64,000 nucleotides of DNA from Alphaproteobacteria bacterium (lineage in GTDB: Bacteria; Pseudomonadota; Alphaproteobacteria; Rhizobiales; Beijerinckiaceae): contig JAJPHH010000001.1 in NCBI GenBank assembly GCA_021325385.1, forward strand, positions 1 through 64,000, in the 5' to 3' direction. Shown in pieces: positions 2,186 through 33,500 of this stretch (the stretch's first letter is position 1; each line of letters begins with the position of its first letter). The notes beneath the pieces were generated by a model. The model searched no databases. It was not told the origin of the DNA and was given only the letters and a program-made list of their open reading frames with translations. Made by a program: the position numbers and the translations under genes.

Positions 2186-2947
2186 TCAGCAGACCGCGCG
2201 CCCGCATTTATGGACGCTGTCAATCTTGTCCTTGAGTTGGTCGTAGCCCACCGCGCCGATCACCACGTCCTGGCCGACAACGAAGCTCGGCGTGCCGTTG
2301 ATCTGCAGAGCGTCGGCCATCTGCATCACTTCCTGGATGCTGGTCTTCGCCTCGGGGCTCGCCATGTCCTTGTTCAAGCGATCCATGTCGACGCCCATCT
2401 CCTTGGCGACGGCCAGCGCCTGGTCCTTGCCGACCACGCCGCGCATGCCGAGCAGCTTCTGATGGAACTGCCAGAACTTGTCGCCGGCCAGTTGGTTGCG
2501 CGCCGCAATCGCGACTCGCGCGGCTTCGACGGAATCCGGCCCGAGGACTGGGAAGTCCTTGAGCACCACTTTGAGATTGGGATCGTCCTTCATCAGCTTG
2601 GCGATATCGGGCAGCGCGCCTTTGCAATAATGGCAATTGTAGTCGAAGAACTCGACCAGCGTCGCGCCGCCTTTCGGATTGCCGACCGTCGCCTGATGCG
2701 GCGAGGAGAATAAGAGGCTGGCTTGGTCGGCGACAATCTTCTCGCGCGCCTCCGCCGCCGCCTCTTTTTCGTGCTTGTCGAGCGCGTCGAGCGCCGCACG
2801 CAAGACTTCCGGATGAGCGACGAGGTAATCCTTCACCACGGCGCCGATCTCGTCCTTTTGGGCCGGCGTGAACTCCGCCGCCGAGGCGGCGGCGATTCCG
2901 AACAGCGCGAGCGCCGCAGCGGCGGCCAGGGCGAAGAAGTTCTTCAT
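2186..2947 (-). CDS. Periplasmic DsbA/Com1-like thiol-disulfide oxidoreductase
   Basis: A 253-residue thioredoxin-fold protein. Residues 1-23 form a signal peptide (MKNFF, hydrophobic core, ASA-A cleavage region), so it acts in the periplasm. A helical N-terminal segment (about 28-75) precedes the thioredoxin domain, with the redox motif C105-H-Y-C108 in FDYNCHYCKG. The cis-Pro loop appears in NGTPSFVVG near the C-terminus. This layout matches the Com1/DsbA branch that introduces or shuffles disulfides in exported proteins. ATG 2947 is preferred over longer starts because AAGAGAGG lies just upstream and it begins the signal peptide. The gene ends at a strong hairpin terminator. Confidence 0.9.
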   Translation of the reverse strand: MKNFFALAAAAALALFGIAAASAAEFTPAQKDEIGAVVKDYLVAHPEVLRAALDALDKHEKEAAAEAREKIVADQASLLFSSPHQATVGNPKGGATLVEFFDYNCHYCKGALPDIAKLMKDDPNLKVVLKDFPVLGPDSVEAARVAIAARNQLAGDKFWQFHQKLLGMRGVVGKDQALAVAKEMGVDMDRLNKDMASPEAKTSIQEVMQMADALQINGTPSFVVGQDVVIGAVGYDQLKDKIDSVHKCGRAVC

Positions 2948-29528: not shown

Positions 29529-30329
29529 ATGTTGATCGGCAAGCGCGGCGACGCGAGGACGGCGATCGCGACGGCCGAAGCCGACCGTATCCTGGTGCGC
29601 GGGCGCGATCTCGCTCACGACTTGATGGGAGCGATCAGTTTCACCTCGTTCTATTTCCTCCTGTCGACAGGACGCGATCCGACGGCCGACCAGCGCTTCT
29701 TTCTCGACGCTTGCCTTGTCGCGCTCGCGGAGCACGGCTTGACGCCGTCGGTCCAAGCCGCGCGGATGACGCTCGCCGCTGATCCGGCGGCGCTGCAGGG
29801 CGCGGTTGCGGCGGGAATTCTCGGCTGCGGCTCGGTCGTTCTCGGCACGGCGGACCTTTGCGCGCAGGCGCTCGACGACATAACGCGACGGGCCAACGCC
29901 GGCGTCTCTCTGGACGACGCCGCAGCCGAATGGGCGCGCGGATGTCGCGCCGCCGGCCTGCCGGCGCCCGGCTATGGACATCCGCTGCACAAGCCGGTCG
30001 ATCCGCGGGCCGAGCGGCTGATCGGCTTGGCGAAGGCGCGAAGGGCGGCTGGACGCTCGGTCGAATGCGCGGAGCGATTGACCAAAATCGTCGCCCAGGT
30101 CTGGGGCAAGCCCTTGCCGATGAACGTCTCGATGGCGATCGCCGCGGTTCTCAAGGATGTCGGCGTTCCTGCGCCGGTCATCCGCGGCCTGCCGATCCTG
30201 GCCCGCACGGCCGGCCTCATCGCCCATCTCGTGGAAGAAGCGCAGGCGCCGATCGGTTTTTTCATGGCGTCGCAAGCCGAGGCCGCCATCGATCATTCCG
30301 GCGCAGCGCAAAAGGAGACGGATCGGTGA
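29529..30329 (+). CDS. Citryl-CoA lyase-like protein (citrate synthase superfamily)
   Basis: A 266-residue protein resembling the C-terminal catalytic half of citrate synthase, like stand-alone citryl-CoA lyases. GYGHPLHKPVDPRAERL (about 155-170) contains the His expected in the active site, and MNVSMAIAAVLKDVGVP follows. LAHDLMGAISFTSFYFLLSTGR is the typical N-terminal block. The true substrate may be citryl-CoA or another 3-hydroxyacyl-type CoA ester. ATG 29529 is favoured by AGGGAGG upstream; ATG 29472 has no ribosome-binding site. The stop overlaps the next start by four bases (GTGA), coupling it to the ligase. Confidence 0.75.
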   Translation: MLIGKRGDARTAIATAEADRILVRGRDLAHDLMGAISFTSFYFLLSTGRDPTADQRFFLDACLVALAEHGLTPSVQAARMTLAADPAALQGAVAAGILGCGSVVLGTADLCAQALDDITRRANAGVSLDDAAAEWARGCRAAGLPAPGYGHPLHKPVDPRAERLIGLAKARRAAGRSVECAERLTKIVAQVWGKPLPMNVSMAIAAVLKDVGVPAPVIRGLPILARTAGLIAHLVEEAQAPIGFFMASQAEAAIDHSGAAQKETDR

Positions 30330-31636
30330 GCCTCGTCGATCCGGACATCGAAACCGCTCCCTGGGAACGCCAGAGGGAGATGGACGCGCCGCTTTACGAG
30401 CGGCAGATCGCCTATCTCTTCGCTCATTCGCGGTTCTACGCTCGCAAGCTCGCCGAAGCTGGATTTTCCGACCCGAAATCGGTCGGCGGGCTCGACGACA
30501 TAGCGCGGCTGCCGTTCACCGAAAAAGACGAGTTGCGGCGCAGCCGGTCGACCGACGAGCCGATCGGGACTCATCTGACCGCGCGGCCGGACGAGATCGT
30601 GCGCATCTATTCGACGAGCGGGACAACCGGGACGCCGAGCTATATTCCGCTCACCGCCCACGACCTCGACGTCTGGGTGCGGACCTCGGCGCGCAGCTAC
30701 GGCGCGTCGGGCGTGAGTCGGGGCGAAAGGCTGGTCTCCACGTACAATGCCGGGCCCTTCGTCGCCGGCGCGGCGATCGACGCTTTCGCGCGGCTCGGCC
30801 TCTGCCACATTCCGATCGGCACCGGAAATACCGAGCGCCTCGCGGCGGCGATCGAACTGTTGAAGCCGACCGCGGCGACGACGACGCCGTCCTACGCGCT
30901 CCATTTCATCGAATGGACCCGCGCCCGCAGCGTCGACCTCGCGCGCTCCAGCGTCAAGCGGCTGATGGTCGCCGGCGAGCCCGGCGGCGGCGAGCCGGCG
31001 ATGCGCGCCAAGCTGGAAGAAGGCTGGGGCGCAAGCGTTACCGAGGCCATGGGCATCGGCGACATTTCGATCTCGATGTGGGGCGAGTGCGAGGCCAAGC
31101 AGGGCATGCATTTCTGCGGCCGCGGCTTCATCCATTTCGAACTGATCGATCCGGCCAGCGGCGAGGCGAAGGAGATCGTCGACGGCGCCGAAGGCGAACT
31201 CGTCTTGACCCATCTCGTCAACCGCTCGGCGCCGCTCTTGCGCTTCCGCACCCGCGACCATGTGCGGGTCTCGGTCGGACCTTGCCTTTGCGGGCGCACG
31301 GCGCCGCGCGTGCGCTGCATCGGCCGCACCGACGACATGCTGATCGTGCGCGGGGTCAATGTCTTTCCCTCCGCGATTCGCGAAGTCGTCAACGAATTCG
31401 CGCCGCTGACCACCGGCGCGCTGGTCATCCGGCCGCGCGCGTCCGGCGTTCGCCAAGACCCGCCGCTGCCGGTCGTGGTCGAAGCCGCGGAAGCGGCCGA
31501 TACTGCCGGGCTCGCCGAAAAAATCCGGGCCCGCATCCGGGACAAGCTCATCGTCGCCACGGAGGTGACCATCGCGCCGCCAGGCGCGCTGCCGCGTAGC
31601 GAGTGGAAATCGAAGCTCGTCGAGAAAGTCCAATAG
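30326..31636 (+). CDS. PaaK-like acyl/aryl-CoA ligase
   Basis: A 436-residue ANL-superfamily adenylate-forming enzyme. Features of the phenylacetate-CoA ligase type: FYARKLAEAGFSDPKSVGGL near 40, the P-loop YSTSGTTGTPSYIPLT (about 92-107), the Cys-containing block GPCLCGRTAPRVRC, GRTDDMLIVRGVNVFPSAIREV, and a Lys near the C-terminus in PRSEWKSKLVEK where PaaK has PRSEGKA. It should form a CoA thioester from a carboxylate via an acyl-adenylate; the substrate is unknown. GTG 30326 is chosen because AAAGGAGA precedes it and it overlaps the lyase stop. It lies 11 bases before the VOC gene. Confidence 0.82.
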   Translation: MSLVDPDIETAPWERQREMDAPLYERQIAYLFAHSRFYARKLAEAGFSDPKSVGGLDDIARLPFTEKDELRRSRSTDEPIGTHLTARPDEIVRIYSTSGTTGTPSYIPLTAHDLDVWVRTSARSYGASGVSRGERLVSTYNAGPFVAGAAIDAFARLGLCHIPIGTGNTERLAAAIELLKPTAATTTPSYALHFIEWTRARSVDLARSSVKRLMVAGEPGGGEPAMRAKLEEGWGASVTEAMGIGDISISMWGECEAKQGMHFCGRGFIHFELIDPASGEAKEIVDGAEGELVLTHLVNRSAPLLRFRTRDHVRVSVGPCLCGRTAPRVRCIGRTDDMLIVRGVNVFPSAIREVVNEFAPLTTGALVIRPRASGVRQDPPLPVVVEAAEAADTAGLAEKIRARIRDKLIVATEVTIAPPGALPRSEWKSKLVEKVQ

Positions 31637-31647
31637 GAGGCGCGACG

Positions 31648-32232
31648 ATGGAGAAAATTCAGGTCCAGGGCGTTCATCACATCACGCTCGTCGGCGCCGA
31701 CCGCCAGACCTCGATCGACTTTTGGGAGGGCGTGCTCGGCATGCCCTTCGTCTTCGAGCAGCCCAATCTCGACAATCCGCGCGAGAGTCATATCTATTTC
31801 GATCCCGGCGACGGTAGGCTGATCACCATCTTCACGCACGAGGAGCGCAAGCCGGACCCGCGGCGTACGCCGACGGAGCCGGGCTGCGTCCATCACATCG
31901 CCTTCAACGTGTCGCGGGCCGTCTATATGCAGGCGGAGAAGCGGCTGAAGGAGCGCGGCGTGACCCCGGCGATCCGCGACCGATTCATTTTCGACGCGAT
32001 GTATTTCACCGATCCGCTCGGCCTGCTGATCGAGCTTTCCTGCTACAAGTTCGAGCCGCCGGCCGGCGCGACGCATGTCGACGTGCTGTTCGAAGCGCAT
32101 AAGCTGCGCGTCGAGCGCGGCGCGCGGCAGATCGAGGAAGCGCATGTCGCCGATGCGATCGAGAATTTGCGCGCTCGCGCGAGCCGGACGTTGTCGAGCG
32201 ACCGCTCGGCGAAGAATCCGTATCGGCGCTGA
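31648..32232 (+). CDS. VOC-superfamily metalloenzyme (glyoxalase/extradiol-dioxygenase fold)
   Basis: A 194-residue protein. A His-His-Glu metal triad is readable: His in VQGVHHITLVG (about 8), His in GCVHHIAFNVS (about 76), and Glu in GLLIELSCYKF (about 130). IYFDPGDGRLITIF is the intervening strand. These ligands suit a glyoxalase, epimerase or type I extradiol dioxygenase; the reaction is not settled. A C-terminal extension of 60 residues is helical and hydrophilic. AGGAGG lies just upstream of ATG 31648. Same operon as the ligase and lyase. Confidence 0.8.
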   Translation: MEKIQVQGVHHITLVGADRQTSIDFWEGVLGMPFVFEQPNLDNPRESHIYFDPGDGRLITIFTHEERKPDPRRTPTEPGCVHHIAFNVSRAVYMQAEKRLKERGVTPAIRDRFIFDAMYFTDPLGLLIELSCYKFEPPAGATHVDVLFEAHKLRVERGARQIEEAHVADAIENLRARASRTLSSDRSAKNPYRR

Positions 32233-32265
32233 CGCGCTTAGTTTTCAAAGGCAAGGGAGGAAGCG

Positions 32266-32958
32266 ATGGCTGCGATCAAACTGCACATCTTGAAGCCGAG
32301 CGTGAACAACATGTCGGCGCGCGTCTTTATCCGCGCGGCGAAGCTTGACTTCGCCGAAGACGACGCCTGGGGCAAGACGCGCTCGCCGGATTTTCTGACG
32401 CGCAACCCCGCGCATCTGACGCCGATGATGGAGTTCGATCATCTGCCGAAGGGCGTGATGTGGGAGAGCTGCGCGATCATGCAGTATCTCTGCAACAAGC
32501 ACCATCTCGATAAATTCTATCCGACCGCGCCGGAAGCGCGGGCGATGATCGACAGCGCGATGTTCTATATTATCGGCACGCTCTATCCGTACATCGCCCG
32601 CGCCACCTATCCGGCGCTGGGCTTCCCGCAATATGCCGGCGAAGTCGGCGCGAGCGACGCCAGCCCGGAAGCGAAAGCGGCCGCGCAGAAGGCGGCGGCG
32701 GCCGCGCTGGAGGAGCCGCTCAGCGTGTTCCACAAGTTCTACATGGACGGCAAGCCGTTCATTGGCGGGCATGAGCCGTCGATCGCCGATATCCGCCTCG
32801 CCGCCTCGCTCGAATTTCTGGCCGCGATAGACTACGACCTCCCCGCCTGGGCGAAAACCTATATGGCGGCGATCGAGAAAGCGCTCGGCTCGGCTTATAC
32901 GGAGCCGGCGGCGGACGTGCGCGGCTATATCGCGCATGTGAAGTCGCAGAAGAAATGA
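32266..32958 (+). CDS. Glutathione S-transferase-like protein
   Basis: A 230-residue GST-fold protein. The N-terminal part begins IKLHILKPSVNNMSARVFIRAA, lacking the usual Ser/Cys at the common catalytic position but with Ser/Asn residues nearby; LTPMMEFDHLPKGVMWESCAIMQYLCNKH includes the usual cis-Pro and glutathione gamma-Glu contact region (ES). The C-terminal helical domain carries SIADIRLAASLEFLAAID. GST-fold enzymes in catabolic operons include maleylpyruvate isomerases and dehalogenases. It follows the VOC gene by 33 bases and is probably the last gene of the cluster. Confidence 0.82.
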   Translation: MAAIKLHILKPSVNNMSARVFIRAAKLDFAEDDAWGKTRSPDFLTRNPAHLTPMMEFDHLPKGVMWESCAIMQYLCNKHHLDKFYPTAPEARAMIDSAMFYIIGTLYPYIARATYPALGFPQYAGEVGASDASPEAKAAAQKAAAAALEEPLSVFHKFYMDGKPFIGGHEPSIADIRLAASLEFLAAIDYDLPAWAKTYMAAIEKALGSAYTEPAADVRGYIAHVKSQKK

Positions 32959-33143
32959 CAAGCGCGCGCTTCGGCTGCGTTCGCCGAAGCGCGCTCGTCG
33001 CGATCCGCGCCGGCGCCTTCCTGGGGCCGGCTACACGGCCTCGTCCGGCTCTAAGGCGCAGAGCGAGTTCGGATTGGTTTCGATTTGCAGGGTCGGGTGG
33101 CCGATCTCGAGCGACGGCCTCGCAGGCGTCTTGGCCCGCGAAC

Positions 33144-33500
33144 TTAGCTGCCGCGATAGGTCGAATAGCTCCAGGGGCTCGCCAGCAGCGGCACGTGATA
33201 ATGCGCCTTGGGATCCGCGATCGCGAAGCGGATCGGGATCACGTCGAGAAAGGGCGGCTCCGCCATGGCGGCGCCGGCGGCGCGGAAATAGGCGCCGATA
33301 TGGAAGGCGATTTCGAACCGGCCGATTCTGGCTTCTCCGGCGGGGATAAGCGGCGCGTCCGTGCGCCCGTCGGCGTTGGTGACGGTCCGCTTGAGCAAGG
33401 ACCGGCCGCCCGCCGCGTCGAGCTCGAACAATTCGATCGCGACGCCATGCGCCGGCCCGCCGCGCACCGTGTCGAGAACATGGGTCGAAAGGCCGGCCAT
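33144..33500 (-). CDS. uraH: 5-hydroxyisourate hydrolase (transthyretin-like)
   Basis: A 118-residue enzyme of purine catabolism that opens 5-hydroxyisourate to OHCU. Signatures: [14 protein letters not shown] at the N-terminus with the active-site His, an Arg in [13 protein letters not shown], and the C-terminal [19 protein letters not shown], whose final YRGS is the diagnostic tetrapeptide. Length is typical. No uricase, OHCU decarboxylase or allantoinase gene is adjacent, so the gene is detached from its pathway here. It is convergent with the GST-like gene. Confidence 0.92.

Follow-up and report, generated by a model that had tools for sequence, protein, structure and literature searches.

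What reaction can be carried out by an operon that joins a citrate-synthase-fold protein lacking two of its textbook catalytic residues to a coenzyme A (CoA) ligase and two further proteins? The question is raised by four genes in a 64,000-nucleotide stretch (the window) of contig JAJPHH010000001.1, from an alphaproteobacterium of the Beijerinckiaceae. We refer to these genes as CIT, PAAK, VOC and GST, and list them here with the junctions between them (aa, amino acids):

29529..30329, + strand: CIT, a 266 aa open reading frame; citrate-synthase-fold, citryl-CoA-lyase-like protein with V104 and S201 instead of the canonical catalytic His and Asp
30326..30329, + strand: GTGA stop/start overlap of CIT and PAAK, read from the sequence
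30326..31636, + strand: PAAK, 436 aa, GTG start; PaaK-like AMP-forming acyl-CoA ligase with conserved adenylate-forming motifs
31635..31640, + strand: AGGAGG, the ribosome-binding site for VOC, which overlaps the stop codon of PAAK; read from the sequence
31648..32232, + strand: VOC, 194 aa; single-domain vicinal-oxygen-chelate protein with the PcpA/MhqO-like pattern H10, H11, T13, H82, H83, R112, Y119, E129
32266..32958, + strand: GST, 230 aa; GST-fold protein with an invariant E67-S68, N14-N15 and M16

The four genes are real and are arranged as one operon: the VOC ATG comes 11 bases after the PAAK stop, and a 33-base gap separates VOC from GST. The original prediction had proposed a four-gene CoA-dependent pathway, and its gene identities agree with the Pfam and NCBIfam families: a citrate synthase C-terminal domain in CIT, an AMP-binding, PaaK-like assignment for PAAK, the glyoxalase/dioxygenase superfamily for VOC, and GST_N plus GST_C for GST. 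Its single transcription unit is likewise visible in the overlap, the ribosome-binding sequence and the 11-base gap. Overall, that interpretation is partly supported: the idea of a CoA-dependent pathway was right, and the four-gene set is of less interest than a conserved clade of CIT proteins without the textbook catalytic pair. Judging from sequence comparisons, we tentatively favour a role for the operon in degrading an aromatic-derived carboxylic acid, by a CoA-dependent route that uses a non-canonical lyase.

The active site of CIT

By family, CIT is nearest to citryl-CoA lyase: it scores 294.2 bits against the subfamily model NF004868 (cut-off 193), and falls below the equivalog models NF004864, NF004865 and NF004867. 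The top match of a 42-row CIT profile was the citryl-CoA lyase of Hydrogenobacter (6hxp; E 1.5e-45), on which the predicted CIT structure (mean pLDDT 86.3) also superposes best (Z 23.9, rmsd 3.9, 241 residues). In the alignment, GSVVLG and NVSM of CIT stand opposite GSAHGG and NVDG of 6hxp, so the catalytic His and Asp positions are occupied by V104 and S201, which we take to correspond to H274 and D375 of pig citrate synthase.

These replacements are not peculiar to the window. Residues were counted in 74 of 86 CIT hits (partial hits and those numbered above L083 were omitted), recording the four commonest at each position: position 104 held V in 33, I in 29, L in seven and Y in five, and position 201 held S in 61, N in four, T in four and A in three. 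A wider count started from 170 reading frames, of which 153 were usable and yielded 139 distinct segments. Neither the His nor the Asp was present in 108 of these, both were present in 25 (20 citryl-CoA-lyase-like and five citrate synthase), and the remaining six, citrate synthases with His and Glu, were the only ones to keep just one of the pair. Position 201 of the 108 non-canonical segments was S in 79, T in 14, N in ten, A in three and Q in two, and Asp in none. All 108 nevertheless retain H69, H151, R160 and R226, which, by the roles assumed from citrate synthase, would hold the oxo-acid.

In a tree built with a quick method, a branch with SH-aLRT 99 separates the 108 non-canonical sequences from all others; closest to them is the divergent His/Asp-bearing L198, which sits on a long branch, and the tree carries a long-branch warning. 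A single clade that keeps the oxo-acid-site residues argues for an active site that was changed once and then maintained, rather than for decay. This bears on two points of the original prediction. It had named a catalytically dead citrate-synthase relative as the outcome that would undo it; the catalytic His and Asp are indeed replaced, but as a clade-wide, maintained state. Taking CIT simply as a citryl-CoA lyase, on the other hand, is not justified, given the same replacement.

Citrate-synthase-like genes also occur as divergent pairs, their matched parts 1.1-1.5 kb apart, in G000, G068, G115, G125, G149 and G174; the G000 pair lies at C102:630-1196 (-) and 2335-2832 (+).

Gene neighbourhoods of the CIT clade and of PAAK

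Neighbouring genes were compared at 31 non-canonical loci away from PAAK. Eleven of them came from plasmids: among 135 plasmid records with a CIT match, 13 were examined, two with PAAK (L143, L153) and 11 without an adjoining PAAK (L144-L150, L154-L157), while L151 and L152 were examined for VOC. The other 20 were genome places (9 + 11), chosen from score lists with their surroundings still unread. Places left aside from the listing that gave the nine included two whose genus was already represented and those under 40% identity, and related loci recur. The comparison set consisted of 16 His/Asp-bearing loci, which are all loci of that type in the source of the 11-place listing and include the divergent L248.

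An intradiol, LigB or PcpA-type ring-cleaving gene lay within 5.5 kb at 17 of the 31 non-canonical loci and at none of the 16 His/Asp-bearing ones (Fisher p = 1e-4, a value that overstates independence because many of the compared loci are related; the ring-cleaving query sequences were drawn from non-canonical loci and may favour them). None of the 16 had a VOC-type match instead, so that all 16 showed neither. A gene for CoA activation, either a CaiB-type CoA-transferase or an AMP-forming ligase, stood within 3 kb at 27 of the 31 non-canonical loci.

The combinations vary. On plasmids of Sinorhizobium sp. B11, Aminobacter MSH1 and Martelella, the clade gene accompanies a CaiB CoA-transferase and a LigB-type dioxygenase; Burkholderia glumae combines it with an intradiol dioxygenase, an FAD hydroxylase, CaiB and LeuCD, and Cupriavidus necator N-1 with an AMP ligase and an intradiol dioxygenase. 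The compact row L223 reads AMP ligase, CIT, PcpA-like protein, hydrolase (named by eye) and a gene resembling iron-containing alcohol dehydrogenase (iron-ADH) and maleylacetate reductase. Its PcpA-like protein is 39% identical to a PcpA homologue of genome G237, where a PAAK copy has, within about 15 kb, the second GST type, VOC, a MetE-like gene, the PcpA homologue (E 9e-80 to 4huz), an FAD monooxygenase, a hydroxyquinol 1,2-dioxygenase (E 1e-84 to 1tmx) and an iron-ADH. The last we infer to be a maleylacetate reductase, NCBIfam placing the protein only near the iron-containing alcohol dehydrogenases. FMN-reductase or WrbA-like genes lie near some clade members. On a Bosea plasmid, CIT occurs with PAAK, a Liv transporter and an isocitrate-lyase/PEP-mutase protein, and other members have different contexts or stand next to insertion sequences. 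Since both the CoA partner (PaaK-like, other AMP ligase or CaiB) and the ring-cleaving gene (intradiol, LigB or PcpA) are interchangeable, with VOC-type genes at further loci, these neighbourhoods suggest a CoA ester of aromatic catabolism as the substrate of CIT, in line with the aromatic-ring fragment that had been put forward as one candidate substrate.

Around PAAK itself, we scanned GTDB genomes and used the best 80 of 231 relatives, which came from Alphaproteobacteria, Gammaproteobacteria and Actinomycetota. CIT lay within 4.5 kb of PAAK at 77 of these 80 loci, too regularly for chance: directly upstream on the same strand at 71, upstream on the opposite strand at five and downstream at one (L063). 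The three loci with no CIT in that range were L027, L053 and L065, and the contig of L065 starts at PAAK. VOC was near PAAK at 28 loci, the window's GST type at 23 and a second GST type at six. VOC was found together with the window-type GST at 20 loci and with the second type at six (TRAP was present too at one of these); GST alone occurred at three and VOC alone at two. A transporter without VOC or GST was present at 27 loci (TRAP at 21, Liv at six), and 22 loci, several of which cover little DNA, had no VOC, GST, TRAP or Liv. The slot downstream is thus filled by VOC-GST or by a transporter, which leaves CIT-PAAK as the conserved core; the VOC-GST pair is optional, and the four-gene set is one version of the locus. 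Conserved clustering, which the original prediction had suggested as a check, therefore holds for CIT-PAAK and fails for the full set with the same GST, found at 20 loci (26 with either GST type), so that a fixed four-gene pathway does not stand.

Among 249 sampled genomes of the order, several of which are the same records as loci of the PAAK scan, ten had PAAK orthologues, 36 had VOC and eight had both. VOC was accordingly present in 8/10 genomes with PAAK and in 28/239 others (Fisher p = 3e-6, counting the genome that contains the window), and it was close to PAAK in five of the eight shared genomes (G000, G048, G237, G272 and G401). At PAAK in these ten genomes, CIT was directly upstream, intact or cut by the contig end, in six, broken or partial in three and missing in one. 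Five of the ten (G048, G272, G274, G304 and G397) carry a CIT relative elsewhere in the genome.

Two further genes recur in these surroundings. A GntR regulator gene was near PAAK at 35 of the 80 loci, mostly divergent and upstream; none was seen upstream of the window's operon. A MetE-type gene was near PAAK at 13 (some matches weak), and a short protein of this type (about 340 aa, 59-78% alike) recurs beside the CIT clade or PAAK (L009, L040, L058, L075-L077, L080, L146, L163, L184, L214, L216, L224, L225 and L230), where it perhaps carries out a methyl- or C-S-transferring step.

Candidate functions of the operon

How would these proteins act in the breakdown of an aromatic-derived acid? 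Given its family and conserved motifs, PAAK would make the CoA thioester of the acid using ATP. Its nearest solved relatives are three PaaK ligases (4r1l, 2y4o and 2y27), followed by 2-hydroxyisobutyryl-CoA synthetase (6hdw). At least 80 of 81 PAAK rows keep the SxSGTxG core, GRTDDM and the terminal Lys (the Lys in 80 of 80 filled rows), and PAAK is thus likely a working ligase, although its 212.6 bits against TIGR02155 are far below the PaaK equivalog cut-off of 646.3. CIT would then break a C-C bond of the thioester, releasing an acyl-CoA and an oxo compound. In citrate synthase, the His/Asp pair stabilises and protonates the acetyl-CoA enolate; with this pair replaced, it is probably the substrate itself, or other residues, that stabilises the departing carbanion. 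Retention of the oxo-acid site speaks for placing CIT after ring cleavage, where it would split the fission product, while the gene order of L223 and the FMN-reductase or WrbA-like neighbours allow one before it, in side-chain removal.

Where present, VOC would act as a PcpA/MhqO-like dioxygenase cleaving a (hydro)quinone-type ring. Among solved structures it comes closest to MhqO (3oaj), the 182-residue glyoxalase 9u42, the two-domain VOC protein 1zsw and PcpA (4huz); FosA-type thiol transferases match more weakly. A scan of the window's genome with a degenerate motif for PcpA-like genes gave two matches, to which we attach no weight. H10, H11, T13, H82, H83, R112, Y119 and E129 are invariant in 32 VOC rows, in register with the HHIT of the first domain and the HH...R...Y...E of the second domain of MhqO and PcpA. 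The aligned positions are presumably the iron ligands and active-site residues of PcpA. PMC3222310, in the part consulted, mentions work on PcpA residues without residue numbers. The chain has one VOC domain, unlike the two-domain architecture of about 320 aa in PcpA, LinE and MhqO, and is hence a relative with the PcpA/MhqO pattern, not a proven dioxygenase; its predicted structure (mean pLDDT 65.9) was too poor for fold comparison. GST, where present, would be a glutathione-dependent isomerase of the ring-fission product. E67-S68, the ES pair of the superfamily's glutathione site, is invariant in 27 GST rows and presumably contacts the gamma-Glu of glutathione. The window protein has N14 and N15 at what we take to be the zeta-class Ser position and M16 at the Cys position, in place of the zeta-class catalytic Ser/Cys motif, and it fails the maleylacetoacetate isomerase equivalog (maiA, 28 vs 171.05 bits).

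On plasmids of Ensifer adhaerens, S. sojae and S. fredii NGR234 (L151-L153), VOC-GST has a methylmalonyl-CoA mutase on one side and a selenium-binding/methanethiol-oxidase-like protein on the other (both named by eye); CIT-PAAK precedes VOC in the NGR234 stretch, and not in those of Ensifer adhaerens or S. sojae.

A bolder extension, which we regard as speculative and probably overstated, is that the His/Asp-less clade forms a new class of CoA-dependent C-C lyases. Such enzymes would strip an acetyl or similar side chain from a hydroxylated or quinol-type aromatic acyl-CoA, or from a ring-fission product, with a self-stabilised leaving group, and would feed (hydro)quinones or oxo-acids to ring-cleaving dioxygenases by an undescribed entry route into aromatic-acid catabolism; "citryl-CoA lyase" would then be a misnomer in the databases.

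Several observations weigh against the aromatic-acid interpretation, besides the relatedness of the compared loci. With its catalytic pair gone, CIT may not be a C-C-cleaving enzyme at all. No intradiol, LigB or PcpA gene lay within 5.5 kb at 14 of the 31 non-canonical loci, five of which had a VOC-type match only and nine neither. A CaiB-type gene lies within 3 kb at 10 of the 16 His/Asp-bearing loci as well, so CoA activation alone is no mark of the clade, and it is the ring-cleaving neighbours that set it apart. At L154 and L156, on alphaproteobacterial plasmids, the clade gene sits within a biotin-carboxylase/HMG-CoA-lyase/acyl-CoA-dehydrogenase cluster that also holds a distant PaaK-like ligase (39-40%) and possibly serves isoprenoid-like acids; some loci thus look isoprenoid- or fatty-acid-like. 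PAAK copies without an adjoining CIT occur (L053, L159 and the second copy in G237), and the CIT frames upstream of PAAK in L158, L162 and L183 are broken or partial, by decay or assembly error. As for VOC, 14 CIT-PAAK genomes were chosen from the 52 loci that lack it locally (L059, a fifteenth, does carry it at the locus); ten of them gave no VOC at E <= 1e-30, and in four it was elsewhere in the genome. The stretches examined among the 28 genomes of the order with VOC and without PAAK share no common context, and on the Ensifer/Sinorhizobium plasmids VOC-GST adjoins propionyl-CoA carboxylase and methylmalonyl-CoA mutase.

These last points also feed the strongest rival, in which VOC and GST are a separate detoxification pair merely downstream of the CIT-PAAK operon. 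The mixed contexts of VOC in genomes without PAAK, the VOC-GST pairs of Ensifer and S. sojae that lack an adjoining CIT-PAAK, and the ten of 14 genomes in which VOC was not found all suit such a pair. We nonetheless think it rather unlikely, given the enrichment of VOC in genomes with PAAK and its closeness to PAAK in five of eight genomes and 28 of 80 loci, spread over Proteobacteria and Actinomycetota.

Alternatively, the substrate could be non-aromatic: an imported hydroxy- or polycarboxylic acid of the citramalate, methylcitrate or alkyl-malate type would be activated by PAAK and split by CIT into acetyl- or propionyl-CoA and an oxo-acid, with VOC as an acyl-CoA epimerase and GST as an accessory. 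This is consistent with the 27 transporter loci without VOC or GST, with an isocitrate-lyase/PEP-mutase protein downstream in seven of the transporter loci (L008, L011, L018, L029, L030, L052 and L143), with LeuC/LeuD-like genes near CIT in L147, L149, L213 and L220, with the fourth rank of 6hdw, behind three PaaK enzymes, among solved PAAK relatives, and with the propionyl-CoA carboxylase and mutase beside VOC-GST in Ensifer. We consider this route unlikely: the same CIT clade has ring-cleaving genes at 17 of 31 loci, as against none of 16 for the His/Asp-bearing type, and VOC matches MhqO and PcpA. A methylmalonyl-CoA epimerase assignment was rejected for VOC, as no such model was among its family matches, and is retained only within this alternative.

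CIT might also be a lyase no longer, and act as a CoA-ester hydrolase or isomerase, or as a subunit or sensor. Both enolisation residues are gone: all 74 rows have V, I, L or Y in place of the His, and no clade member has Asp at the other position. PDB titles name human ACLY D1026A with substrates and products, a mutant that reportedly blocks cleavage. Against this, the oxo-acid-site residues in 108/108 segments and a CoA-activating partner at 27/31 and 77/80 loci speak for an active enzyme with a CoA-ester substrate, which makes the proposal improbable. That CIT is an ordinary citryl-CoA lyase acting on citryl-CoA, as its database name, NF004868 score and nearest structure would have it, is very hard to sustain when the catalytic His and Asp are replaced clade-wide, no citryl-CoA synthetase is among the four genes and the clade's neighbours point elsewhere.

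The aromatic-acid interpretation matters because proteins annotated as citryl-CoA lyase, without two residues that the chemistry is taught to need, are widespread. Their pairing with CoA-activating genes and with three ring-cleaving families and VOC-type proteins amounts to a testable claim of an undescribed catabolic step and, if true, the "citryl-CoA lyase" annotation would be corrected in many genomes.

The operon is flanked upstream by a Der-type GTPase gene (named by eye) and an opposite-strand gene whose protein had no Pfam or NCBIfam match. Beyond GST, and convergent with the operon, lies a lone 5-hydroxyisourate hydrolase gene on the opposite strand (33144-33500, - strand; TIGR02962 exceeds its cut-off; no search for other urate genes was made), followed by pyruvate dehydrogenase genes (named by eye). 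One further feature falls between the two convergent genes:

32964..32994, strand unassigned (listed on the - strand by the terminator scan): stem-loop with 12 perfect pairs, directly after the GST stop

It possibly marks the operon's end. Terminator-like sites in the region are not above chance (4 vs 3.0 expected). The site scan found no promoter-like sites in the region, and no family reached its gathering threshold in an Rfam scan of the window.

Comparison with known systems

No paper on the CIT-PAAK-VOC-GST set was found in the open-access literature, a search on homarine included; PMC2864759, as far as consulted, concerns autotrophy. A related published logic is that of the iad locus for indole-3-acetate in Variovorax, for which an acyl-CoA synthetase step followed by removal of the acetyl side chain has been proposed in the portions of PMC12633357 consulted. 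There, side-chain removal is assigned to IadG, an acetyl-CoA acetyltransferase-type protein unlike CIT. The term "citrate synthase" is absent from the main text of PMC12633357, and "citrate" from PMC9613470; the iad pathway was dropped as a match, as no citrate-synthase-type gene was seen in these portions.

The individual proteins have clearer counterparts. PAAK shares family and adenylate-forming motifs with the PaaK ligases (4r1l, 2y4o, 2y27) and with 6hdw, but the other genes of the phenylacetate pathway are not in the operon and PAAK is far below the equivalog cut-off. With PcpA (4huz), a kin of LinE, and MhqO (3oaj), VOC shares the HHxT and HH...R...Y...E pattern, yet it consists of one domain and a helical tail (194 aa), whereas theirs are 320-335 aa with two matched domains. 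CIT, finally, has the fold and the four oxo-acid-site residues of the citryl-CoA lyase of Hydrogenobacter thermophilus (6hxp) and of the ATP-citrate lyase module. It differs in carrying V and S at the catalytic His (GxHGG loop) and Asp (NVDG), where 6hxp and 20 citryl-CoA-lyase-like outgroup rows keep the His, and in its partner, which is a PaaK-like ligase in the window and a CaiB transferase or another AMP ligase in its relatives.

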